Virus record (IMG/VR): IMGVR_UViG_3300009436_000142
Location: 1 to 20,454 of that record
Length of the DNA: 20,454 nt
Direction: 5' to 3' (one strand)
Origin: a virus
A model generated the notes under the pieces. It was not told the DNA's origin and searched no databases. It saw only the letters and a program-made list of their open reading frames with translations. A program made the translations under genes and the position numbers. This document shows positions 3,776 to 19,334 of this stretch, in pieces. How positions within the stretch are numbered: position 1 is the stretch's first letter; each line of letters starts with the position of its first letter.

Positions 3776-5800
3776 ATGGATAAAATATTACATGTAGCCT
3801 CTACGTTCAAGTCTCATGAGAATGATGACGGTAGCGTAATGATACGAGGTATGGCAAGTACTAACCACTCTGACCGAGCAGGAGATGTAATCTCTGCTGA
3901 AGCTTGGGCAAAAGGTGGATTAGAAAACTTTAAAAATAACCCTGTAATTTTATTTAACCACGACTATGATAAACCAATTGGTCGTGCTACTGGAGTTAAA
4001 ATCACAGACAATGGACTAGAGCTAGAAGCAAAAATTAGTAAATCTGCTCCTGCCTCAGTCTGTGAATTAGTTAAGGACGGTGTCCTTGGAGCCTTTTCCG
4101 TTGGTTTCAAAGTCAAGGATGCTGATTACATAAAAGAAACTGACGGATTAATGATTAAGGATGCTGAGTTGTTTGAAGTATCGGTTGTATCGGTACCATG
4201 CAATCAAGCAGCTACTTTTTCGCTAGCGAAGTCTTTTGACTCACAAGATGAGTACGAAGAATTCAAAAAAACTTTCACCAATCGTGTCGATCTACCTGGT
4301 CAGTCTCTGACCAAAGATGATTCAAAAGAATCAAACCTGGTTAGTGACGCACCTAAGCACGTAGAGCAATCTACAAATAAGGAGACGAAAATGTCGGAAG
4401 ATAACACTCCCGCAATCGACTTGGAAGCATTTGCTAAGAAAGTAGCTGATGAAACTGCTGCTAAAATTGCAATGAAACAAGCCGAACAAAAAGCCGCTGA
4501 TGAAGCGCAACAAAAAGCTACTGCTGACGCAGAAGCTGAAAAAACTGCTCAAGAAGAGCAAATTAAATCAACTATCCGTACTGGTATTGAAACTGGTGCA
4601 GAGAAGCTTATGGCAGATGTTCAAGCCGATATGGCAAAAGCTTCAGCTGATCAATTAGCAGAAGTTGCTGCTAAATATGAAGCTGATCTTAAAGAAAAAT
4701 CAGAAGAGTTGGCCGCTATGCGTAATAGCAAAAAATCTTTCTCTGATCGTTCTGGTTCTGCTAAAGACTCTATCTCTAAATGGGGTAAAGACTTCATGCA
4801 CGCTCATTTATTAGGCGTTATGACTGGTAAAGGCGTGGACACTAAGTATTCTCGAGACTTGATGGAAAAAGCTGGTCTTGACTACGCAACTAATGCCGGC
4901 GGTATTGCACAAGAAGTTTCTAGTCAAATTGAGCGAGAAATCAATCTTGAGCTTAAATTAGCACAAGCTTTCCGCGAAATCACTATTAACTCATCTACTC
5001 AAGTATTACCAATTTTAGGTGACTCAGGTCTTGCTAAGTTTGGTGTTAATGCAGTATCGGGCGGTAACTTGGATAACAATCCACAAGTTACAAATAACCA
5101 ATTCAATGCTAAGCAGGTAATCTTAAAAGCTACTCGATTAGTTTCTAGTACTTTTATGGATAACAATATTGACGAAGAAACTCTTGTTAATTTAATGCCT
5201 ATGCTTATTGAAGGTGTTGCACGTGCACACGCTCGTTCAGTAGATAACGCTATTCTTAATGGTACTGCTGGCGGAGACGAAGGCTTTAACGGTCTTGAAG
5301 CTCTTGCAGGTAGTAACACTGTTGTCGCTCGTGATGAGAATGCCAGTGGCGGTACTGATTTAGTATTAACAGCTGCTGAATTTTTAGCTGCTCGTCAGAA
5401 AATGGGTAAATATGGCATGGTTGCAGGCGATGTTGCTTATGTAGTTAATCAAAGCGGTTACTATGATCTTATTGCTGATTCAGGTTTTGCTGATATTACT
5501 GATGTAGGTTCGGATCTTGCTACTAAGATTACTGGTCAAGTAGGTGCAATTTATGGTTCTCCTGTAATTGTATCAGATCAGCTTGAAGCTAATGCTGATG
5601 GAGCTACTGCTGGTTACGCAGTCAATGTTAAAAACCATGTAATTCCACGTTTACGCGGTGTTTCAGTTGAGCAAGACTACGAAGTAATGAATCAACGTAA
5701 CGTAATTGTTGCTAGCCAGTCTCTTGGCTTCAATCAATTAGTTGCTAATAACGGTACTACTGATGTATCTGTTGTTAAACTGATTCGTACTGACGGTTAA
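3776..5800 (+). CDS. fused prohead protease, scaffold-like domain and major capsid protein (HK97 type)
   Basis: A 674-residue ORF joining what are usually separate genes. Residues about 1-152 match HK97-type prohead protease (U35): GMASTNHSDRAGD (25-37), the candidate catalytic His62 in LFNHDYD, Ser108 in GAFSVGF, and Glu134 in ELFEVSVVSVP. Residues 153-205 are a polar linker. Residues about 206-325 are an Ala/Glu/Lys/Gln-rich predicted coiled coil, like the HK97 capsid delta (scaffolding) domain. Residues about 326-674 look like the HK97-fold major capsid protein (GIAQEVSSQIEREI, 376-389; VILKATRLVSSTFMDNN, 448-464; ARSVDNAILNG, 486-496). ATG 3776 has only a weak ribosome site, whereas an in-frame ATG at 4391 has a strong one, so protease-capsid fusion and capsid alone are probably both made. 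All 19 arginine codons are CGN, unlike neighbouring genes, which suggests high expression. The catalytic assignment is by eye. Confidence 0.9.
   Translation: MDKILHVASTFKSHENDDGSVMIRGMASTNHSDRAGDVISAEAWAKGGLENFKNNPVILFNHDYDKPIGRATGVKITDNGLELEAKISKSAPASVCELVKDGVLGAFSVGFKVKDADYIKETDGLMIKDAELFEVSVVSVPCNQAATFSLAKSFDSQDEYEEFKKTFTNRVDLPGQSLTKDDSKESNLVSDAPKHVEQSTNKETKMSEDNTPAIDLEAFAKKVADETAAKIAMKQAEQKAADEAQQKATADAEAEKTAQEEQIKSTIRTGIETGAEKLMADVQADMAKASADQLAEVAAKYEADLKEKSEELAAMRNSKKSFSDRSGSAKDSISKWGKDFMHAHLLGVMTGKGVDTKYSRDLMEKAGLDYATNAGGIAQEVSSQIEREINLELKLAQAFREITINSSTQVLPILGDSGLAKFGVNAVSGGNLDNNPQVTNNQFNAKQVILKATRLVSSTFMDNNIDEETLVNLMPMLIEGVARAHARSVDNAILNGTAGGDEGFNGLEALAGSNTVVARDENASGGTDLVLTAAEFLAARQKMGKYGMVAGDVAYVVNQSGYYDLIADSGFADITDVGSDLATKITGQVGAIYGSPVIVSDQLEANADGATAGYAVNVKNHVIPRLRGVSVEQDYEVMNQRNVIVASQSLGFNQLVANNGTTDVSVVKLIRTDG
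4379..4393 (+). promoter_or_regulatory. internal ribosome-binding site and in-frame start inside the protease-capsid ORF
   Basis: AAGGAG (4379-4384) is followed by six bases and ATG 4391-4393, which is in frame (codon 206) with the long ORF. This is a better ribosome site than the one before ATG 3776. It sits exactly at the junction between the polar linker and the scaffold/capsid part, where a stand-alone capsid gene would begin. Confidence 0.8.
4391..5800 (+). CDS. major capsid protein with N-terminal delta-like domain, made from the internal start
   Basis: The nested product from ATG 4391 would be 469 residues: about 120 residues of coiled-coil delta-like domain, then about 350 residues of HK97-fold capsid protein. 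That is the usual layout of a precursor major capsid protein whose N-terminal domain is removed by the prohead protease. The start is supported by the AAGGAG site at optimal spacing and by the domain boundary. The long ORF around it would supply the protease as a lower-abundance N-terminal extension, similar in logic to nested protease/scaffold genes such as lambda C/Nu3. The cleavage site cannot be read with confidence; a change from helical to capsid-like sequence occurs around residues 318-330 of the long form (NSKKSFSDRSG). Confidence 0.75.
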   Translation: MSEDNTPAIDLEAFAKKVADETAAKIAMKQAEQKAADEAQQKATADAEAEKTAQEEQIKSTIRTGIETGAEKLMADVQADMAKASADQLAEVAAKYEADLKEKSEELAAMRNSKKSFSDRSGSAKDSISKWGKDFMHAHLLGVMTGKGVDTKYSRDLMEKAGLDYATNAGGIAQEVSSQIEREINLELKLAQAFREITINSSTQVLPILGDSGLAKFGVNAVSGGNLDNNPQVTNNQFNAKQVILKATRLVSSTFMDNNIDEETLVNLMPMLIEGVARAHARSVDNAILNGTAGGDEGFNGLEALAGSNTVVARDENASGGTDLVLTAAEFLAARQKMGKYGMVAGDVAYVVNQSGYYDLIADSGFADITDVGSDLATKITGQVGAIYGSPVIVSDQLEANADGATAGYAVNVKNHVIPRLRGVSVEQDYEVMNQRNVIVASQSLGFNQLVANNGTTDVSVVKLIRTDG

Positions 5801-8279: not shown

Positions 8280-9689
8280 ATGTCAGCAAATAATTTATTT
8301 TTTAGTAGAGATACGAAACTCTACATCGAGCTTATAGATAGCGCCGGGGTTGCTCAAACAGATGGTAGTGTATGGGAAATTCCAATTCTAGACGGCTATA
8401 GCTTTTCACAATCAACAAATACTTCAGAAATTACACTATCTGAAGCAGCTTCTTCTACTGGTACAAGTAGACGAGGCCGTAAAGTGTTTACTGATAACTT
8501 TGCTCCTGCAGAGTTCTCGTTTTCAACTTATGTTCGACCTGTAAAAAATCTTACAGCTAATAATGGTAGACCAGGAGACTGGGAAGCCGGTGGTGTTGGT
8601 ACTAATGCAATTCACGCAGTAGAAGAAGTTTTATGGGCATTATTTACTGGCGACTCAACTTTTACAAAAAGCTCGGGCAGTGCAGCAGCATCTTGGAGCG
8701 ATAGTATAACTCAAGGTGCTACAAATATGGTTGTTGACTTTTCTGCATCAAACAAGTCGCAGTTAGGTAGAGCAAACCTGTACTTTGTTATGGGCGGAGA
8801 CCAGTCTATTGTTTCTACTACAAATAGTTCACAATCTAATGCAGCACAAGCAATAGTTGCAGTTGCTCAAACAGCGGGCATTAAAAAAGGCGACTATATG
8901 CGATTTGTCGGAGACGATGTTTCGACAAACTCCGGAGACAATGCAGTATTTGAAGTAGATGCTGTTTCTACAGCTAGTGGAGCCGGTAACGTTACCTTGA
9001 AATCAAATATTCCAAATGCTATTCCAAGTGGAACTACTCTAAGCTTTAGTAGCGCTCAAGTGTATAAACTTCCTGGCTCTGTTTTAAATGAAGTTGGCGT
9101 TGATTTTGACTTAGAGGGTATTGCTACTCTAAACTGGTCAGGCATGGCAGACATTATTGAAGAATCATTCTCTGCTCCAGCCGCCACAATTTATGAAGGA
9201 CTTACATCTACAAGTAACTTTATTCGGAATAAAATTTCTACTCTTGCTTTGACAAGTAGTGCATCTGCTGTTCCTGCTAGTCATACTTATGATATTACAC
9301 TAACTGGTGGTAATATTACAATGACGAATAACATTACTTTCCTAACCCCAGAAGAGATAGGTACTGTAAATAAACCAATCGGCCATGTTACAGGAACCCG
9401 TAGTATTACAGGTAGCTTTACTTGTTACTTAAATACTGCGGCTAGTGGTAGTGCGGATTTATTCCAGGATATCATGAGCGCAACAACTGTCGTTACTCAT
9501 GATTACAGCGCAACTTTAAACATGGGAGGCACAACAGGGCCTTGCGTAGCATTTACTATGCCTCAAGCTCATGTATCTCTACCTGCAATCAACATTGAAG
9601 ATGTTGTCTCAGTAGAGGTAACTTTTGATGCGTTACCTTCATCAATTCCAAATACTGATGAGATAACAATTACCTACAAAGGTGCTTAA
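8280..9689 (+). CDS. tail-tube-like protein 1 (probable major tail protein)
   Basis: A 469-residue protein with a good ribosome site (AGGAG at 8267-8271, eight bases before ATG). Position right after the tail terminator and before chaperone and tape measure genes is the usual place of the major tail protein, which polymerises as hexameric rings into the tube. It shares a block pattern with the two later paralogues: an N-terminal strand with KLYIE (13-17), SFSQS (41-45), EFSFSTYVRP (78-87), AVEEVLWALF (113-122), a strand RANLYF (164-169), LNWSG (284-288) and a C-terminal region with KPIG (365-368), TGSF (377-380) and DEITITYKGA. Residues about 175-262 are an extra beta-rich insertion not matched in the other two. 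A terminator follows. Of the three paralogues it is the likeliest major tube subunit, given its good ribosome site and following terminator. Confidence 0.75.
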   Translation: MSANNLFFSRDTKLYIELIDSAGVAQTDGSVWEIPILDGYSFSQSTNTSEITLSEAASSTGTSRRGRKVFTDNFAPAEFSFSTYVRPVKNLTANNGRPGDWEAGGVGTNAIHAVEEVLWALFTGDSTFTKSSGSAAASWSDSITQGATNMVVDFSASNKSQLGRANLYFVMGGDQSIVSTTNSSQSNAAQAIVAVAQTAGIKKGDYMRFVGDDVSTNSGDNAVFEVDAVSTASGAGNVTLKSNIPNAIPSGTTLSFSSAQVYKLPGSVLNEVGVDFDLEGIATLNWSGMADIIEESFSAPAATIYEGLTSTSNFIRNKISTLALTSSASAVPASHTYDITLTGGNITMTNNITFLTPEEIGTVNKPIGHVTGTRSITGSFTCYLNTAASGSADLFQDIMSATTVVTHDYSATLNMGGTTGPCVAFTMPQAHVSLPAINIEDVVSVEVTFDALPSSIPNTDEITITYKGA

Positions 9690-9743: not shown

Positions 9744-12700
9744 ATGGCTGAAACATTTTACTTTGGTAAAGAACTTAAAGTATACCTTGAGAATAATAGA
9801 GGCGAATTGTGGCAGATTGCTGTAACTTCAGAGCCTTCCTTTTCACAAAGTGTTAACCAAGAAACTGTTAGTACACCTTCGCTATATGCGGGAGGTACTA
9901 CTAGGAATTCTTTAAATAAGTTTACAAAAAATATCAAGGTAGGATACGCACCAGGTGAGTGGTCATTCAGTACGTATGTTAGACCTTTTAATCAAGACTC
10001 GAAAGAACGTGCTGTAGAAGACGTTTTATGGGAGTCTTTTGCTCAAGGTTCTGCAACCGCATACGCAGATAGCCCAAGCTCTGTATCTGCTACACAACAA
10101 GATATAACTCTTTCTAAAGATGAACTACTAAGTTCATTTAATCTTTACTTTATATATGAAAACAATACCGGATACGTAATGAAGAATTGCGTAGTATCCT
10201 CCGCTAATACAACTGTAGATATTGGGTCTTTGGCTACAATATCATGGTCGGGGTCGGGAACAAGTTTAGAAAAGTTCGACCCACAAGATTTAGTACAGTC
10301 TGCAGATAACTCGCCACAACATAGAAGCGGCAACATTGACAGTGGAAAAATGGCTGCAATGGAAGGCAATACTGCAATATTTGCACACTCATGGGAAAAC
10401 GCCCCTGATACAAATAACTACGATGGTGCTGCTCATGTGTATGTAACAAATGATGGTGGGTGTACGTGGGAGTTTCAACAGACTTTACGACCTACTGAGA
10501 CGGGAGGCCATGAGTACTTCGGGGTCTCTATAGCTCTCGAAGGGGATAAACTTGTTATAGGTGCAGTCAATCGCCTGGGCGGAGACGGAGGATTCTACTA
10601 CTATACTAGAGCTGCAGGAGTTTGGACTCTTGTAGCGGCTTATTCTAGTCCTGACTTTGACGAGGATAATGGTGACGATGACGGAGTCTCAGGGGACTAT
10701 GATGATGATAGACTAGGTCAATCAGTAGCAATGAGCGGAGACTATTTAGTAACAGGTGTATCTGGGCACGATTCCGGAGATAGTTTAGACGATAATATTG
10801 GTGCAGCAGTTGTATGGAAGCTTGTAAACAACGCATGGGTGCAAAAGGCTATATTATATAACACAGATGGAACGGACCAGCAATACGGAAGAAGTGTGCA
10901 GATAGATGGAGACAGAATTGTTATTCCGAGCAGACAAAATCTTTATTTTTACACTACATCAGACGCGGGAGAAACTTGGTCACTAGAGCAGACTTTATTT
11001 ATCTGGGCCGTCGGTAAACCAATAGCATCACAGAACGAAATATGTAAATATAACCGCCAGGGCGGAACTTATGGTACCGTCTTTCTTGGCATGTCCTACA
11101 TAGACTCACATGCCGGCTTTTTTGATAGCGGTGCAGTGCTGGTAATTACACATAATGGAACAGCTTGGTCCGTTACACAAACTATAGCGTCTCCTCTTGC
11201 AGCAACGCAACATTATTTCGGACGCCACATAGACTTTGATGGAACTACACTATTAGTCGCAGGCTCAGACGATTACTCACGTTGGGGCTCTACCGATACG
11301 AATTACGGTAGAGGCAAGCTATACCAATACAACTTAAACGGAACAACTTGGGAGTTATCCCATACGTTAGATACTGAAAAAGCATTATCTTTAGGTGGTG
11401 CAATGGGTCGTACTAACTATAGCTTCACATTGAGTAATGGCAATATATTAACTAGATGTCTAGAAAACCGAACAGGATTAAGCGTAGCTACTACTACCCG
11501 AACTGTGACCAGCATTACAGCAGACTACATAACACTAAATGCCCGCTACAATCCTAGAAGCTACGATTCTGTAGTTATCAACGGACAAAGGTATTTTGCT
11601 ATTTTGTTATCTCCAGCCGGGGTCAACCACGCTGTAGGTCTTAGTACGAACTGGGTTATGAACCAGGAGGGTAGAGGGCGAATAGACTGTACTACTTTAG
11701 GTCTATCTGTAAATGATAGTTTAGTTTTTGAAGGCGAGAGTATACACTCTTGGCACTTCTTTAAGGCTGGCTTCCACCCTTCAATGTGTGAGAACAAAAC
11801 GGGGTTAGCGCTAACAGATAACTACATAGTAAATAAACTTAGTAGCATGGAATTTGGTCTGCAAGAAAGTAAAGAAGTTCTTTATCGTGGTGGCATGCTT
11901 CCTGATTCGCCTACATCGTATGATTATTTTGGAGCGGCAATGGACATGCAGTACCCTTGGTTGATGGTATCCGCATATGGAGATGATACTGCCACAGGCG
12001 ATGCAGGCTCAGTACAAGTTTTTAAATTTGATGAAGCTACTAACGCTTGGGTATTTAAACAGACTTTATTTTCCTTCTCACCTGAAGGAAGTGCACAATT
12101 TGGAGGACCCCCTGATGGTAGTCCAATTTCTATCTCACCTTGCGGTAGGCAGGTAGCAATAGGAGAACAAGGCAGAGGTACAAATACTACAGGCCGTGTA
12201 TATATCTTCTCCTTAAAAGCAGACCTGTGGCAGCAAGAAGCAATTATAGACCCTACAGGCACCGCTGCCGGCGATACGTACCTAGAATTTGGTAGGGACG
12301 TGTCTTTGTATCACAACATGCTTATTGTAGGTTGCTGGCTAGATAATACTTCTACAGGCAACGACAAAGCAGGCAGCGCCGCTATTTATAGAAGAGAAGG
12401 AGCGTTGTGGACTAAGAGAGAGCATTTAGTTGGGTCAGATCATGGCGGCACCAGTGCAGCACATGATTTTTTCGGTAGAGGAGTAGCTATATATGACGGA
12501 GTGGCTATAGTATGTGCTTCTGGAGAAGGTGCCGGTACTTACTACTCCTTCAAATCCACAAATAATGGAAAAGACTGGTCGCTAGCAGAGAGAAAATACT
12601 TGCCTACCGGAGCATCATCAGGGGGTCGCCAAGTCAAGCTTGCAGAAGGTACCATGATCATTGGAGAGCACGGGCTAGATGTACTGAATGGCTTAAATAA

Positions 12701-13538
12701 CACAGGGGGTGTATTTGTCTATAATACTACTTCGACATTAGGCGTATTTAATCATGTAACTACTCTGCTTCCACTAACTGTAGACTTTGCTGATTTAGAG
12801 GTTAATGATTATTTTGGACTGCCTGTAGATATGGACACGTCTGAGAACGGTAAGAATGTTACTATTGTGGCAGGCGGTCATACGTTCGACACCAACGGAA
12901 TAAATTCTGCAGGCCTCGGATACATTTGGAACTCTACTGATTACGGAAAATCTTGGTCTGAAGGACGTACGTTTCACCCTTCCAATTTGGCCGATACCGA
13001 TACTTTTGGACACTCATTAGCAGTAAGCAATGGACATATTGCAGGTGGATCTAGATACGGTGTAGTACCGGGATTTGCGGGAAATCGTCATGGATATGTA
13101 GCTACATTCAGAACTGGCGTAAACTTCCCTATAACATCCGCAGAGATTCAAATTAGTAACTCACTAACGCCCATTTCTTACCCATTACTTGGCGAAATGG
13201 ACAAACCTCTTGGCTTTTCCTCAGGGACTCAACAAGTGTCTGGTAGCTTCTCTGGCTATATAATGGATGACGGAGGCCTAGATACAAAAGAGTTTATATC
13301 TTCTTTATTTGACAACACGATACAGACTTTGCCACTTTCTTTAAATTTTGGAGGAACCAAAGCAAATACTAATAGGTTAAAATTTAAAATAAACAAAGCT
13401 ACACTTTCCAACCCTTCTATATCGGGAGAGGGTATAGCAGCCTTCAACGTAGAATTCTACGCAGAAGATACTCAGACACAGAACTCGAATTTAACAGATA
13501 TAGTAAAAATAACCTATAAATCTTCATCAGTAGCTTAG
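9744..13538 (+). CDS. tail-tube paralogue carrying two inserted beta-propellers (FG-GAP/Asp-box)
   Basis: A 1264-residue protein. Residues 1-180 repeat the tube pattern of the upstream gene: KVYLE (12-16), SFSQS (32-36), EWSFSTYVRP (72-81), AVEDVLW (90-96), FNLYF (132-136) and ISWSGSGT (166-173). Residues about 1129-1264 supply the rest of that fold (DKPLGF, VSGSF, DIVKITYKSS). Between them lie about 940 residues with a repeating unit: a Trp-containing strand, then FG or YG, then a hydrophobic strand of the form LVIGA. Trp-type units occur at 242, 294, 365, 412, 475, 536, 769, 829, 889, 945, 1002 (Phe) and 1071. FG-type turns fall in two groups, about 196-572 and 728-1125, each compatible with seven blades. 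Asp-boxes are at 235-242, 405-412, 938-945 (degenerate) and 1064-1071. Such propellers often bind glycans or calcium. It probably decorates the tail exterior; being weakly transcribed, it may be a minor subunit. Confidence 0.8.
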   Translation: MAETFYFGKELKVYLENNRGELWQIAVTSEPSFSQSVNQETVSTPSLYAGGTTRNSLNKFTKNIKVGYAPGEWSFSTYVRPFNQDSKERAVEDVLWESFAQGSATAYADSPSSVSATQQDITLSKDELLSSFNLYFIYENNTGYVMKNCVVSSANTTVDIGSLATISWSGSGTSLEKFDPQDLVQSADNSPQHRSGNIDSGKMAAMEGNTAIFAHSWENAPDTNNYDGAAHVYVTNDGGCTWEFQQTLRPTETGGHEYFGVSIALEGDKLVIGAVNRLGGDGGFYYYTRAAGVWTLVAAYSSPDFDEDNGDDDGVSGDYDDDRLGQSVAMSGDYLVTGVSGHDSGDSLDDNIGAAVVWKLVNNAWVQKAILYNTDGTDQQYGRSVQIDGDRIVIPSRQNLYFYTTSDAGETWSLEQTLFIWAVGKPIASQNEICKYNRQGGTYGTVFLGMSYIDSHAGFFDSGAVLVITHNGTAWSVTQTIASPLAATQHYFGRHIDFDGTTLLVAGSDDYSRWGSTDTNYGRGKLYQYNLNGTTWELSHTLDTEKALSLGGAMGRTNYSFTLSNGNILTRCLENRTGLSVATTTRTVTSITADYITLNARYNPRSYDSVVINGQRYFAILLSPAGVNHAVGLSTNWVMNQEGRGRIDCTTLGLSVNDSLVFEGESIHSWHFFKAGFHPSMCENKTGLALTDNYIVNKLSSMEFGLQESKEVLYRGGMLPDSPTSYDYFGAAMDMQYPWLMVSAYGDDTATGDAGSVQVFKFDEATNAWVFKQTLFSFSPEGSAQFGGPPDGSPISISPCGRQVAIGEQGRGTNTTGRVYIFSLKADLWQQEAIIDPTGTAAGDTYLEFGRDVSLYHNMLIVGCWLDNTSTGNDKAGSAAIYRREGALWTKREHLVGSDHGGTSAAHDFFGRGVAIYDGVAIVCASGEGAGTYYSFKSTNNGKDWSLAERKYLPTGASSGGRQVKLAEGTMIIGEHGLDVLNGLNNTGGVFVYNTTSTLGVFNHVTTLLPLTVDFADLEVNDYFGLPVDMDTSENGKNVTIVAGGHTFDTNGINSAGLGYIWNSTDYGKSWSEGRTFHPSNLADTDTFGHSLAVSNGHIAGGSRYGVVPGFAGNRHGYVATFRTGVNFPITSAEIQISNSLTPISYPLLGEMDKPLGFSSGTQQVSGSFSGYIMDDGGLDTKEFISSLFDNTIQTLPLSLNFGGTKANTNRLKFKINKATLSNPSISGEGIAAFNVEFYAEDTQTQNSNLTDIVKITYKSSSVA

Positions 13539-13632: not shown

Positions 13633-14649
13633 ATGGATATTTATCAGTTTTTAGAGAATGCGGATGTTTATCTTCAACCTTCCGCAGGAACTGATACGTA
13701 TAAACTAGACATAACTCCCGAAGGTGTTTCATTCTCCCAAACTTTTACAGAGCATACCTATGCAAAGAAAACCTTGCATCAACAGTCTCATAATATAAAA
13801 GAGGGTTCAATATCTAAAGCCAATCCTGCCGACTTTTCTTTTACCATACCTCTATTAAGAGAAAATGATTTTGATACTATATTTAACCTACTTGTAGACC
13901 TAAATACAAGCGATACTTTAGATACTTTCAACTTGTTCTTTTTTGTAGATAATTCAGCCTATATAATAGAAAAGTGTGTATTTACAAATGGAAATTTTCC
14001 TATAAATAACGCTAGTCCTTTATCAATTCAGTTGTCTGGGCAAGGAACACGACTTTATGTGTATAATGCTCCTACTACTGGTATACATCAAGGAAAGATA
14101 GTAGATAGCCTAGGAAATCTTAGTGCTTTGTTTCAATCGCAAACTGATGTACCCAAATTCACACAGGCAAATATAGTAGCTAGATCGAATAATAGGAATT
14201 TTCTTCCTTTGACAGAGGCTATATTAATAGAAACCTACGCTCCTGCAGGCAGCAATAGATCAGAAAGTGTAGCAAACCTTAATATAGAGCTACAAAACAA
14301 TATTAGTTGGGTAGGCTATACTACAGTGCACAAGAGATTGAGCGTAACAGATAATAGTAATAGCCAATACCCTGATAACTTCACTTTAAAAAATAGGTCT
14401 TTAGCAGGTAACGCATCCTACTATGTAGGAAAAGATAGAAGTGCTTCTACAGCATGGATAGAAGGCACAGAGTTTACTATAGCTGCATTCAGTAGATCGA
14501 ATAATACTAACTATGGCCTCAAATTAATAGCACCACTAAATATAACAACTAGAGTTACTCCTGGCTCTGTAATAACAAACTCGTACGACTGGAGACTGGC
14601 AAGCAATGCCGATACTATTTCAAATTACTTTACATACACAACCGCCTAA
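13633..14649 (+). CDS. tail-tube-like protein 3 (smallest paralogue)
   Basis: A 338-residue protein with the same block order as the two upstream tube-like proteins but no large insertion: DVYLQ (11-15), GVSFSQTF (31-38), FSFTIPL (68-74), FDTIFNLLVDL (79-89), FNLFFFVDNSAYIIEKCVF (about 97-115), IQLSGQGTRLYVYN (about 131-144), and a C-terminal half with ANLNIELQNNISWVGY and a terminal FTYTTA strand. It has the simplest tube-like architecture. It has its own promoter and leader and directly precedes the tail chaperone gene, so an adaptor, baseplate-proximal or alternative tube ring is plausible. Assignment of which paralogue is the true major tube protein is unsure. The similarity is visible by pattern only; percentage identity is low. 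Confidence 0.65.
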   Translation: MDIYQFLENADVYLQPSAGTDTYKLDITPEGVSFSQTFTEHTYAKKTLHQQSHNIKEGSISKANPADFSFTIPLLRENDFDTIFNLLVDLNTSDTLDTFNLFFFVDNSAYIIEKCVFTNGNFPINNASPLSIQLSGQGTRLYVYNAPTTGIHQGKIVDSLGNLSALFQSQTDVPKFTQANIVARSNNRNFLPLTEAILIETYAPAGSNRSESVANLNIELQNNISWVGYTTVHKRLSVTDNSNSQYPDNFTLKNRSLAGNASYYVGKDRSASTAWIEGTEFTIAAFSRSNNTNYGLKLIAPLNITTRVTPGSVITNSYDWRLASNADTISNYFTYTTA

Positions 14650-14661: not shown

Positions 14662-15066
14662 ATGCAACTAAAAAACTTAATTATAGACAGTAAATCAGCT
14701 TGGGTAGACTTTCCTGGGTTATCTGGATTCTCAGTAGAGGTAGTAAACCTCTCGCGAAAAGAGATTCAAGCACTACGTAAGCGATGTATTACACAAAAGC
14801 TCGATCGCAAAACTCGCACAATGGAAGAAGTATTAGATGAAGAAAAGTTCGTTGAGTATTTCACTGGGTCTACTGTAAAGAACTGGAAAGGGCTAACCCT
14901 AGAACATTTAGAAACTCTTATTCTTATTGATACAGAAGAAAAAGACTTAAAAACAGAATTAGAATACTCAGTAGAAAATGCAGAAATTCTAGTAGCTCAA
15001 TCAGCAGAATTCGATACGTGGCTCAACGAGGTAGTCTTTGATCTAGATAACTTTCGTACAGTCTGA
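14662..15066 (+). CDS. tail assembly chaperone, short form (lambda gpG analogue)
   Basis: A 134-residue protein directly upstream of the tape measure gene, where lambda-like phages encode the chaperone that coats the tape measure and recruits tube subunits. It begins with beta-rich LIIDSKSAWVDFPGLSGF, has a basic segment (RKEIQALRKRC, about 32-42) and then an acidic helical C-terminal half (TEEKDLKTELEYSVENAEI), typical of such chaperones by size and charge but too divergent to name a family. The end overlaps an open frame (from 15047) that has no start codon, so most copies should stop at TGA 15064 and a minority continue by frameshift. The gene has a strong AAGGAGG ribosome site. Confidence 0.8.
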   Translation: MQLKNLIIDSKSAWVDFPGLSGFSVEVVNLSRKEIQALRKRCITQKLDRKTRTMEEVLDEEKFVEYFTGSTVKNWKGLTLEHLETLILIDTEEKDLKTELEYSVENAEILVAQSAEFDTWLNEVVFDLDNFRTV

Positions 15067-15439
15067 ACGTGAGTTATTTTGGGAACGCTTAGATCGTTAT
15101 TTCAAAAACTCCGACTCAAAGATAGATGTAAATAAGTATTTTGAGATATGTGAGCAGCTGAATCAAGAAATAGATTGGACGAAAGTCCCTGTTTCCTGGG
15201 AAGAAATACCTGAGATAGCTAGAGCCGCAATTAATGCTTTCAATATGTTAGGAGATAGAATAGCAGTAGATATAGGCTATTTAGGAAAAGATTATACTAA
15301 TTTACCTTTATACATGGAAATATGGGAAATAGAGGATAAAGAGTTCTTTCTAGAGATAATAAACTGGTTAGACTCAAGAGCTATCAAAAAATCCGCAGAA
15401 ACAATGAAGCGGGAAAGAGATAAGCTAAAGAGAAAATAA
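15047..15439 (+). CDS. tail assembly chaperone C-terminal extension, reached by +1 frameshift (lambda gpT analogue)
   Basis: A 130-codon open stretch in the +1 frame relative to the short chaperone, from just after an in-frame TAG (15044-15046) to TAA 15437-15439, two bases before the tape measure start. Codons 15047-15244 contain no ATG, GTG or TTG, yet the translation looks real (SERELFWERLDRYFK, then YFEICEQLNQEIDW, then VSWEEIPEIARAAINAF), so it is not a separate gene starting at the first in-frame ATG (15245). A +1 slip at TTT_C (15052-15055) would give a 258-residue fusion: 131 residues of the short form plus 127 from this frame. It ends in a very basic helix (KKSAETMKRERDKLKRK). In lambda the equivalent fusion bridges the tape measure and tube protein. 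The frame geometry is clear; the exact slip site is inferred. Confidence 0.75.
   Translation: MTFVQSERELFWERLDRYFKNSDSKIDVNKYFEICEQLNQEIDWTKVPVSWEEIPEIARAAINAFNMLGDRIAVDIGYLGKDYTNLPLYMEIWEIEDKEFFLEIINWLDSRAIKKSAETMKRERDKLKRK
15052..15055 (+). other. candidate +1 ribosomal frameshift site
   Basis: The two frames overlap only between 15047 and the TGA at 15064-15066. Of the short-form codons in that overlap, only TTT (15052-15054) can re-pair after a +1 move, because tRNA-Phe reads TTC at 15053-15055. None of the other codons there re-pairs well, and no -2 slip is plausible. No Shine-Dalgarno-like stimulator is seen at prfB-like spacing. Confidence 0.6.
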
Positions 15440-15440
15440 C

Positions 15441-18400
15441 GTGGCAAGTGAAGTCAAGGTAAAGATAAAAATTGATGATGACGGAAGTCTATCTGTAGTC
15501 GCTAAGGAAGCTAATAAAGCTACTAAGGCTACAGAGAAGCTTGGCACTGCTACGAACAAAACTAATAAGACCCGTAGTAAATATCATAAACAAGAGAAGG
15601 GAGTTGCAGGTGCAACCAGTAACTCTACTAAAAGTTTTGCAAAACAAGCCCAGACTATCGGTGGTGGTAGTTCGGGTCTTGTTGGTGCATACGCAACTCT
15701 TGCTGCGCACGTATTTGCAGTATCCGCTGCTTTTGGTGTCCTTTCTAGGAATGCAGGTTTCAAGCAGTTGGAGCAAGGCATTATCTTTACAGGTAGAGCA
15801 GCAGGTGCCAATCTGCCTCTACTATCGAAAAATCTAAAAGAAATAACTGATAGTGCCATTTCTACTGCTGATGCAATGAAAGCGGTAGCTATTGGTACGT
15901 CTGCAGGATTTAGTTCAAGTCAATTAGAAGGTTTAACAAGTGTAGCTAAAGGGGCTAGTTTGGCTTTAGGTAGAGATATGACCGATGCCCTGGATCGTCT
16001 TGTACGAGGTGCAGCAAAACTAGAGCCTGAGATACTTGATGAATTAGGTATCATGGTTCGACTAGATAAAACTGCTCAGGACTATGCAGGGAGCTTGGGT
16101 AAAACCGTATCTCAGTTAAGTGTATTTGAAAAGCGAATGGCCTTTACAAATGCTATTATAACACAGGGCGAGCAAAAATTCGGTGCTTTAAATAATATAA
16201 TTGAAGCCAACCCCTACTCAAAACTTGCAGCAACTTTTGACTCTTTACTTAAAAATACAATCGCCTTTGTAGAAAAAGGACTAGGCCCTGTAGTATCTTT
16301 ACTTGCTAGTAATGTTGGGCTACTAACGGGTGCTATAGGTATATTTGCAGCAGGTGTTGTAAAAATGATGATACCCGCCCTTACTCAAGGCGGTAAAGCG
16401 GCTTCAGAAATGGCTGCAAGAACTCGAGACATGGCTAAAGAACAATTACAGTCAGTAAAAGTCTTTAAAGGTGCGCCAAAAGTTTTTACAGATCTCCAAA
16501 AGAAAATGGCTGCAGGCACTGCAACTGAAAACGATATGGTTAAGGCAAAGGCAAGCTTGAACCAGTCTATTGCTAAACATCAAAAGCTTCAAAAACAAGA
16601 TTCTGTAAGATACGCTAAAAGTACGGTTGAAGGCCAGAAAAAGATAGCAATTATAAATTCAGAAAAAGCTGCACTAAATGATTTGATTAGGGTTGAGCAG
16701 TTGGAAGCAAAAGCTACTTTGATGTCAGGTAGAGCAGATGTTATGCATACCGCAAGTACGGGAGGTTTAATAGCTACTTATAAAGCTCTTACGGTACAAA
16801 TTACACTGGAACACGCAGCCCTAACAGCAGAAACCCAAGGCACAAATTTAGCTACTAGAGCTAAACAGAGACTTACTCTTGTAGCCGCACAAGCAGGACT
16901 AGCAGTGCGAGCTTTTGGTACTGCAATTATGAATGCTATACCTGTGATTGGTATGATAGTTTTTGCAATCTCATTAGCTGTTGCAGGATTTAAAAAGTTT
17001 TTTATGGCGCCTCCAACGGCATTGGAAAAACAGCTTGAAAAAACTAAAGAAGCTTTCGAAGATTTCCCTAATGTTTTAAATCAGATGATAGATGCGTACT
17101 CTCTCGCTACTACTAGTGCTGAGAGGTTTGAGGTTTCTTTAAAAGCGCAGGTAGGGCTAGTAAGTCAAGTAACTGATCAAATGAGAAAATTAGTAACTGT
17201 GCAGCAAGCAAGTATTCTCGCTGCACAGGCAAAGGCCGAAGCCAATTTAGTAAAAAAACAACTAGCTGCTAAGAAGCTAGGTGCTAACCCTGAGCAAAGC
17301 AGTAGGCCTGTGGTATTTGGCGCTCCAAGCTATGCTGGTGCCACGATAACAAAGCAGGGGATGGCCGAAGCTTCGGTGAATTCTGCAAAGCGAGAAGCAG
17401 AAGAGGCCAAGAAAAAGAAGGTCCAAGTAGAGCAAACCAGAGATGCTATGATAGATGCCATCTCCGAACAAGTAGCTTTTCAACGAGCATTTAATAGTGT
17501 TCAAGAAGAGGGCAGTGATGGGCTGAAAGTAGGTATTACTGTACTTGAAGGATATGAAACAGCCCTAGCGAATTTAGTAAAAGTAGAGACCTTAAAAGAC
17601 ATAAATGATGTGAATAAAGGGTTAATGGCCTTAAATGTAGAAGTAGCAGGAGTTAAAGACTCTTTTGACCAAGGACTGGAAAGTAGCAGAAAATTTACAG
17701 AACACTTCGCAAAAATGGAAAAACCAACGGGTAAACTAAGTGCAGAAATGGAACTAATGAGTGATGCTATAAATGCCATGGGGGACAATGATAAGTTTGT
17801 GGAGGTCTTTGAGAGGTACGCTGACGCTTTCGCAAAATTCGGAGCTACGGACGCAGAAGGTGCCAGAAGAATACTACAGACAATAAAAGATATCAATCAG
17901 GAAACAAAAGATCAAGCCTTGCAAAAAGGACTGCAAGCAGGGGACCCCGATACTTACAGAAGCCCTTATGCCGTAGAAAAAGCAAATATGGCTAACTTAC
18001 AAAAACGAAAGGCCACTGAAATTAAAGAAGTGCAGTTTCAGTCAGGCATACAAGAGGCAGCATACCAGAATAGCCCTCTAAGTGGGTCTATGGACAGAGA
18101 TAAGTTTCTTGGTGCGGGCAATGCTAACGCCGATGCCTTATCTGCTGCACAAATTGCAAAAGCAGCAACGGAAAAAGAAATACTTGCAAGTAGAAAAAAA
18201 CTTAGTGGGTTTAAAACAGAAGACTTTAATAGCAGAGATGTGTCTGGTTTAAATACAGGTGCAACTTTATCAAATTCTTTTGGTGCTGGAGCACAAGGCA
18301 CAGCACTGGATCCAGCATCCAGCGCCAGCGCGGGAGAAAAACTTGCTGCAGTAAACGATGCTATGTCTCCAATGATGGAAAACCTAGCTTCGCTTGGCCC

Positions 18401-19334
18401 GGAAGGAGCACTCATGGCTTCAGCTATGGAAGGGGCGATGTCTTTAGGGGAAACGTTAATAACCAGCTTTGAAGGAGGAAAAATGGGGGCTGCAGATATG
18501 CTTAACGCTGTTGGCTCAGCTATTGGGGCAATAAACCAGATGCAACAAGCCCAGACGAAGAGAAAGGTTATGGCTGTGGACAAAGAAATTGCTGCAGAGA
18601 AGAAAAGGGATGGATCTTCTAAACAGAGTCTTGATAAAATTAAACAACTCGAAAAGAAAAAAGAAGGGATGGAGAAAAAAGCATTTGAAAGAAATAAGAA
18701 AATGCAAATGGCTCAAGTAGCCATCTCTATAGCTACAGGTATTGCAGGAGTATGGGGAGGTGTTAAAGACCCCTATATAGGACCGACTATGGCAACAGCA
18801 GTAAGCGCTATGATTTTAGGTATTGGTGCAGCACAGCTTTCTATGATCTCAGGTACTACATACGAGGGAGGAGCCTCTTCAGCAGACGCAGGAGCAGGCG
18901 GAGGTGCACGTAGTGCAACGGCAGGAGAAAGATCAAACACTGTGGATTTAGCAAGATCACAAAGTGCGGTAGGAGAACTAGGATATGCACGTGGTGAATC
19001 AGGTGTTGGAGATGCAAACAGCTTTAAGCCTGCATTCACAGGTGCTCGTTACAGAGCAGCCGGAGGAAGCACTGGGTATATGGTAGGCGAGCAAGGTCCC
19101 GAACTGTTTATGCCTGATACCCCTGGTACCATTATTCCTGCAGGAGAGACTGCGGGAGCGGGGACACCTTCAAATGTTAATATCTCTATTCAAGCATTAG
19201 ATTCAGCAGGTGTAGAAGATATTTTAGTATCTCAGAGAGCAAACATTATATCAATGATAAGAGAATCGGCAAACCAAGTAGGTGATACATTCCTAGAAAA
19301 TGTAGACACTGTAAGTGATGGAGCAACATACTAA
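15441..19334 (+). CDS. tape measure protein
   Basis: A 1297-residue protein, the longest gene in the window. It sets tail length and is passed into the host during DNA entry. At about 0.15 nm per residue it predicts a tail of roughly 190 nm. Seen in order: N-terminal beta-rich segment and Lys/Thr-rich stretch (1-70); hydrophobic helix about 79-101; a region with KTVSQLSVFEKRMAFTNAII (221-240), typical of tape measures; hydrophobic segments about 280-310 and 490-517; long Ala/Lys/Glu-rich coiled coil (about 525-1080); a hydrophobic Ala/Gly region containing AISIATGIAGVW; a Gly-rich linker; and the motif GYMVGEQGPELFMPDTPGTI (1212-1231), common near the C-terminus of phage tape measures. The start is GTG 15441, one base after the chaperone stop, with a weak ribosome site. 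It overlaps the next gene by TAATG. Confidence 0.95.
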   Translation: MASEVKVKIKIDDDGSLSVVAKEANKATKATEKLGTATNKTNKTRSKYHKQEKGVAGATSNSTKSFAKQAQTIGGGSSGLVGAYATLAAHVFAVSAAFGVLSRNAGFKQLEQGIIFTGRAAGANLPLLSKNLKEITDSAISTADAMKAVAIGTSAGFSSSQLEGLTSVAKGASLALGRDMTDALDRLVRGAAKLEPEILDELGIMVRLDKTAQDYAGSLGKTVSQLSVFEKRMAFTNAIITQGEQKFGALNNIIEANPYSKLAATFDSLLKNTIAFVEKGLGPVVSLLASNVGLLTGAIGIFAAGVVKMMIPALTQGGKAASEMAARTRDMAKEQLQSVKVFKGAPKVFTDLQKKMAAGTATENDMVKAKASLNQSIAKHQKLQKQDSVRYAKSTVEGQKKIAIINSEKAALNDLIRVEQLEAKATLMSGRADVMHTASTGGLIATYKALTVQITLEHAALTAETQGTNLATRAKQRLTLVAAQAGLAVRAFGTAIMNAIPVIGMIVFAISLAVAGFKKFFMAPPTALEKQLEKTKEAFEDFPNVLNQMIDAYSLATTSAERFEVSLKAQVGLVSQVTDQMRKLVTVQQASILAAQAKAEANLVKKQLAAKKLGANPEQSSRPVVFGAPSYAGATITKQGMAEASVNSAKREAEEAKKKKVQVEQTRDAMIDAISEQVAFQRAFNSVQEEGSDGLKVGITVLEGYETALANLVKVETLKDINDVNKGLMALNVEVAGVKDSFDQGLESSRKFTEHFAKMEKPTGKLSAEMELMSDAINAMGDNDKFVEVFERYADAFAKFGATDAEGARRILQTIKDINQETKDQALQKGLQAGDPDTYRSPYAVEKANMANLQKRKATEIKEVQFQSGIQEAAYQNSPLSGSMDRDKFLGAGNANADALSAAQIAKAATEKEILASRKKLSGFKTEDFNSRDVSGLNTGATLSNSFGAGAQGTALDPASSASAGEKLAAVNDAMSPMMENLASLGPEGALMASAMEGAMSLGETLITSFEGGKMGAADMLNAVGSAIGAINQMQQAQTKRKVMAVDKEIAAEKKRDGSSKQSLDKIKQLEKKKEGMEKKAFERNKKMQMAQVAISIATGIAGVWGGVKDPYIGPTMATAVSAMILGIGAAQLSMISGTTYEGGASSADAGAGGGARSATAGERSNTVDLARSQSAVGELGYARGESGVGDANSFKPAFTGARYRAAGGSTGYMVGEQGPELFMPDTPGTIIPAGETAGAGTPSNVNISIQALDSAGVEDILVSQRANIISMIRESANQVGDTFLENVDTVSDGATY

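Follow-up and report, generated by a model that had tools for sequence, protein, structure and literature searches.

The closest described counterparts of the locus analysed here are tail assembly chaperone pairs of the lambda type, in which two genes in overlapping frames lie between those for the tail tube and the tape measure protein, and the second, lacking a start codon of its own, is reached by frameshifting (-1 in lambda, -2 in Mu); lambda G/GT is also the basis for the assembly role that we propose below (PMC5009743). Programmed +1 shifts are known from other genes, namely bacterial prfB (RF2), in which the P-site tRNA slips on CUU_UGA with the help of a Shine–Dalgarno (SD) sequence, and morphogenesis genes of the Listeria phages PSA, A118 and A500 (CCC_UGA, CCC_UCC). 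Work on UUU-pyrimidine sites was reportedly published by Schwartz and Curran in 1997. The UUU-UGG of yopN was considered as a bacterial UUU_Y precedent and rejected, given that the hybrid was unaffected by mutation in Y. pseudotuberculosis (PMC3789692). A 2016 recoding review gives the phage +1 cases as those of Listeria and a likely archaeal one, and a text search of that review for 'phage T5' found no mention (PMC5009743); according to a 2024 predictor paper, no general +1 motif has been identified (PMC10885494). In eukaryotic viruses, influenza A PA-X (UCC_UUU_CGU) and amalgaviruses (UUU_CGN) use a zero-frame UUU_CGN at which the P-site tRNA moves from UUU to UUC. The +1 shift at influenza UUU_CGU was proved by a transframe peptide and is abolished by UUC_AGA (PMC3498833), and plant amalgaviruses carry UUU_CGN with all four CGN codons, for which a property beyond tRNA supply is suspected (PMC5052127). 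Searches of the open literature, a scope outside which Xu 2004 and the subscription papers on T5 fall, turned up no prior report of a +1 site in T5-like phages or of a bacterial UUU_CGN precedent. New here is a predicted G/GT chaperone frameshift that would use a +1 site of the UUU_CGN class.

The window, that is, the whole stretch of DNA analysed, is a 20,454-base IMG/VR virus contig. The features that bear on the frameshift are the following.

13633-14649, + strand: upstream neighbour, baseplate tail tube protein-like (phrog_3889, E 7e-5)
14662-15066, + strand: G-like tail assembly chaperone, 134 aa, the normal translation product (PHROG phrog_313, E 1.2e-17)
15028-15039, + strand: upstream block GAGGTAGTCTTT, candidate stimulator or pausing element (-24 to -13 from TTT)
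15047-15439, + strand: T-like open frame (PHROG phrog_3914, tail assembly chaperone, E 1.6e-18)
15052-15057, + strand: predicted +1 frameshift site TTT_CGT (from comparison with relatives)
15064-15066, + strand: G stop codon TGA (from the sequence), three codons past the start of the A-site codon
15441-19334, + strand: downstream neighbour, tape measure protein (phrog_3779, E 3.9e-79)

The G open reading frame starts with ATG and stops with the TGA at 15064. Its codons fall at 1 mod 3, whereas T codons fall at 2 mod 3, and T is therefore +1 to G, the relation that an initial annotation of this DNA had given for the frame at 15047-15439 and the gene at 14662. The two frames overlap by 20 bases, in which the G frame reads GAT AAC TTT CGT ACA GTC TGA, and the T frame offers its earliest ATG, GTG or TTG at 15245, in agreement with the 198 bases without a start codon counted earlier. 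The order tail tube, G, T, tape measure matches that of T5-like phages, across which the G family is conserved. As in the lambda-type pairs, both proteins are homologous to PHROG tail assembly chaperones and lie between tail tube and tape measure genes, and T occupies another frame, has no start of its own and is under selection from the junction on; the comparison with relatives bears out the initial reading of the locus as a G/GT chaperone pair. Unlike in the lambda-type systems, the shift predicted for the window goes in the +1 direction and uses the tetramer UUU_C in place of a slippery heptamer. Scans of the window for tRNAs and against Rfam gave no matches.

Relatives were collected through protein searches, in which T matched 597 phage records and G 883 (almost all of them T5-like Demerecviridae), and from several hundred IMG/VR loci; junctions were read from the loci through profile searches of all open frames. 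A blastn search of phages with the G-T DNA gave no matches. Two records, PQ773600.1 and OR848485.1, hold T5-like chaperone genes under Corynebacterium and Listeria phage labels and are probably mislabelled or contaminated. T lies in the +1 frame in 125 of 204 distinct junctions, in agreement with the frame relation of the window. Every one of the 124 readable +1 junctions, which share kinship so that counts over them are not independent, carries TTT_C in the G frame: 106 have TTT_CGT, 10 TTT_CGC, 6 TTT_CGA and 2 TTT_CAC. A zero-frame UUU_CGN inside the overlap, followed by a downstream ORF in the +1 frame, is thus found in 122/124, as in the UUU_CGN class, and all nine additional isolate junctions also have TTT_CGN. 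The initial annotation had placed the shift at TTT_C (15052-15055) and proposed an alignment of the overlap with related phages; the comparison confirms the site, but the conserved unit is TTT_CGN, longer than TTT_C. In a dereplicated +1 set, the site is TTT in 86/86 and the next codon CGN in 85/86 (72 CGT). Readable junctions come from nine genera (Tequintavirus, Epseptimavirus, Sugarlandvirus, Myunavirus, Priunavirus, Novosibvirus, Thalassavirus, Jesfedecavirus and Pogseptimavirus), and T5 itself (T5.143/T5.142) reads GAT ACT TTT CGT AGC. The predicted +1 site is general in T5-like phages and not peculiar to the phage of the window. TTTCGA is also visible in a tenth genus, Shenzhenvirus, through the damaged record of Aeromonas phage AhSzq-1 (L019/L271, NC_047949.1), in which G and T are unannotated and interrupted by several frame breaks, probably sequencing errors. 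Two loci, L065 and L072 (about 1500-1560), keep TTT_C but have CAC as the A-site codon where the others have CGN, and so offer a natural test of the need for CGN.

In the same genes, TTT accounts for 75% of Phe codons and AGA and CGN for 44% each of Arg codons; in other conserved columns of G, Phe is encoded by TTT in 65-91% and Arg mostly by AGA. Of all codons of G, TTT (position 0) and CGT (+1) rank in the top five for synonymous constraint. Among +1 relatives, both the overlap length and the E-site codon vary freely, and TTT is separated from the G stop by a distance of 6 to 90 nt, which puts the stop outside the signal. Past Phe-Arg the homology of G is variable, and that of T starts at the Phe. 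The 15 listed genes of the window, 6,373 codons in all, contain TTT_CGN a single time, at the shift site, with 3.2 expected, a weak indication of avoidance elsewhere in the window. No avoidance is seen in the late region of T5 (7 in-frame TTT_CGN pairs versus 5.9 expected), suggesting that TTT_CGN by itself is probably only weakly shifty.

On the strength of these comparisons, a programmed +1 ribosomal frameshift very probably yields a long chaperone, G-T, beside G. Most ribosomes would release G after reading TTT CGT ACA GTC TGA. With CGN in the A site (CGT, 15055-15057, in the zero frame), tRNA-Phe (GAA) would occasionally slip in the P site from UUU (TTT, 15052-15054) to UUC (TTC, 15053-15055), a codon that this tRNA reads better. 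Reading would restart at GTA 15056 as GUA CAG UCU..., so that the T segment translated after the shift would be 15056-15439 and the junction LDNF-VQSER, the same peptide, LDNFVQSER, that had been put forward for mass spectrometry. By analogy, a slippage of a few percent would suffice and would match the lambda ratio; from lambda G/GT we further infer that G would serve as a coat for the tape measure protein (15441-19334), and that recruitment of tail-tube subunits would fall to the T domain. The C after TTT would be invariant because tRNA-Phe (GAA) needs it for re-pairing from UUU to UUC, and the conserved G after TTT_C makes the waiting codon CGN.

The predicted site thus resembles those of PA-X and the amalgaviruses in its zero-frame UUU_CGN, its +1 direction and the P-site move from UUU to UUC, and differs in that the ribosome is 70S, the virus a DNA phage and the genes unrelated; unlike in PA-X, the E-site codon of the phages is not UCC and is not conserved. 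A further difference concerns the A site, where a slow, rare codon is not found for E. coli and T5: at 16.9 per 1000, CGT heads the Arg codons of the late region of T5, and E. coli uses CGU 20.2 times per 1000 codons (PMC3498833). For T5, rarity of the A-site codon is therefore not the driver, unless infection alters the tRNA pool. The likeness to prfB is a bacterial +1 slip of the P-site tRNA; here, however, the A site holds a sense Arg codon, CGN, and no SD abuts the E site. The Listeria phages share a programmed +1 shift in morphogenesis genes, but their site is a proline codon and the product a C-terminal extension of a structural protein, with no chaperone pair.

That T is read as protein from the junction on follows from its pattern of substitution. 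Between the G stop and the first T start codon, the median dN/dS of the T frame is 0.156 (224 pairs of relatives), as against >1 in the other two frames of the same region and pairs, which supports the earlier statement that the frame is coding. This weighs against an independent T gene, whether initiated at an internal or atypical start codon or through reinitiation past the G stop, although isolate records do annotate T apart, from a downstream start, and in marine phages an SD-like GAGGT is followed 5 nt later by a T-frame UUG at -14. In the window, AUC UAG comes directly after that UUG, and 79/124 junctions have a T frame that opens only at -5, past that stop. The first start codon is scattered over 3-192 nt among the 124 junctions and has an SD-like motif upstream in just 7, and the annotation of AKFV33 reads 'No ribosome-binding site'; we consider independent initiation of T very improbable. 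The same data bear on a sequencing error, which the initial annotation had named as what would overturn its reading, and on a decayed, frameshifted gene. A single +1 offset is what an indel error usually looks like; the frame relation and site nevertheless recur in contigs and isolates that are independent of one another (124 distinct junctions), and T is under purifying selection, leaving error or decay a negligible probability.

The two remaining alternatives would join the same frames by another route, and under neither of them, nor under an internal start, is there a reason for the invariant C. A Mu-like -2 shift would arrive in the same frame as +1, but re-pairing from TTT onto ACT (AAC TTT, 15050-15052) or from CGT is poor, the bases ahead of TTT are not the same in marine phages as in T5-likes, and only a +1 shift needs the C of TTT_C, which is invariant; a -2 shift is highly improbable. 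RNA polymerase would have to slip on a T run that counts only three bases in the window and three or four among relatives, whereas transcriptional slippage sites are usually longer homopolymers, and such slippage would require neither the conserved CGN nor the stem-loop of the -1 clade described below. It could account for a change of direction between clades, given that transposase families with both +1 and -1 members have been tied to transcriptional slippage (PMC3711429), yet we regard it as extremely improbable. Ribosomal +1 slippage on TTT_CGN is the reading that we carry forward.

Sequences that might stimulate the predicted shift were sought on both sides of it. Synonymous constraint on G in the marine +1 clade is strongest at the shift codons and at GAG GTA GTC (-24 to -16), and the block GAGGTAGTCTTT has 91-100% nucleotide identity in marine relatives; it is absent from T5-like isolates. 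The block contains an SD-like GAGGT (anti-SD pairing -6.9 kcal/mol) that ends 19 nt before TTT, and stimulation of the SD type by GAGGT was rejected because this distance is outside both prfB-like and dnaX-like spacing. No SD was found at prfB spacing, with no anti-SD pairing at -15 to -3; the initial claim that the site has no prfB-like SD holds at that spacing, with the qualification that the window and its marine relatives have the SD-like block GAGGTAGTC 16-24 nt upstream. The upstream block can pair weakly with the shift site, and a hairpin between the two was also rejected (synonymous-shuffle z -0.65 for the marine clade, -1.03 for eight isolates), its 3' arm falling on the site covered by the ribosome. 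Downstream, marine +1 members have no structure at +6 to +60 (mean z -0.1 versus shuffles).

The other 79 distinct junctions, every one of them metagenomic, have T in the -1 frame, and the aligned segment in them reads GAA AAT TTT AC. Their sites are A_AAT_TTT (73), G_GGA_AAC (4) and T_AAT_TTT (2), and TTT_C at the Phe codon is present in 1/78 of the -1 junctions with an AATTTT site. The earlier statement that no -1 heptamer can reach the T frame holds for the window, and the +1 clade likewise has T in the +1 frame on TTT_C, but this uncultured sister clade, the only one with a lambda-type heptamer, has it at nearly the same codon. That the motif is exchanged where the frame is -1 counts in favour of the +1 reading of TTT_C. 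In L190, L211, L212 and L216 (about 1500-1520), the lambda-like heptamer G_GGA_AAC lies one codon ahead of the usual A_AAT_TTT. A stem-loop starts 8 nt past the heptamer (mean z -2.8 versus shuffles at +6 to +60), so that the sister clade alone combines an X_XXY_YYZ heptamer with a 3' stem-loop, as in canonical -1 sites. In the main -1 group (37 members), the stem is 94% paired with compensatory changes, and its covariation score is 0.288, compared with 0.137 for shuffles and <=0.068 for slid alignments; the stem-loop is missing in some basal -1 members. RNAalifold found no structure in the mixed -1 set, and pair counting on the main group found the stem; we think that the null result is due to members with other stems or none. 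A second strongly structured region of the -1 clade lies within T at +132 to +186 from the site (mean z -3.7).

In a maximum-likelihood tree of 140 G-T proteins, a single branch separates the frame classes (SH-aLRT 99), so one switch of direction suffices. Midpoint rooting leaves +1 on both sides of a root that is not secured, which hints that +1 is the ancestral direction. We lean slightly towards a wider account, in which UUU_CGN would promote +1 slippage through its codon pair, and not through scarcity of the A-site tRNA, on bacterial and eukaryotic ribosomes alike, T5-like phages would have kept it to switch between their tail chaperones, and one sister clade would have exchanged it in a single step for a -1 heptamer and stem-loop at nearly the same Phe. 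If this codon-pair account is true, the locus is a natural reversal of frameshift direction inside one gene pair. The two clades form a natural experiment on changes of direction and on the stimulators that accompany each, and a bacterial case of the influenza and amalgavirus UUU_CGN in which CGU is common makes a rare A-site codon separable from a codon-pair effect. T5 is a classic model phage, and its conserved +1 site predicts a product that can be tested in E. coli K-12. No joined G-T gene is present in the annotated isolate records examined, in which G and T are separate or T is missing, and the region is unannotated in three further isolate records; the Sugarland genome paper describes a tape measure chaperone, like that of T5, without a predicted frameshift signal (PMC6256483).

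Three other regions of the window were noted. The ORF at 9744-13538 encodes a 1,264-aa second homologue of the major tail protein (phrog_3575, E 1.7e-20) with FG-GAP repeats in mid-protein (PF14312, E 2e-37); it adjoins a tail protein of normal size (8280-9689), and the product of 13633-14649 is the third tail-tube-like protein. At 3776-5800, a prohead protease (PF04586) and a major head protein (phrog_617), separate genes in T5, are fused in one 674-aa frame. Between the terminase and portal genes, a 134-aa ORF (1890-2294) with a CxxC...HH pattern has the look of an HNH endonuclease and no Pfam match.
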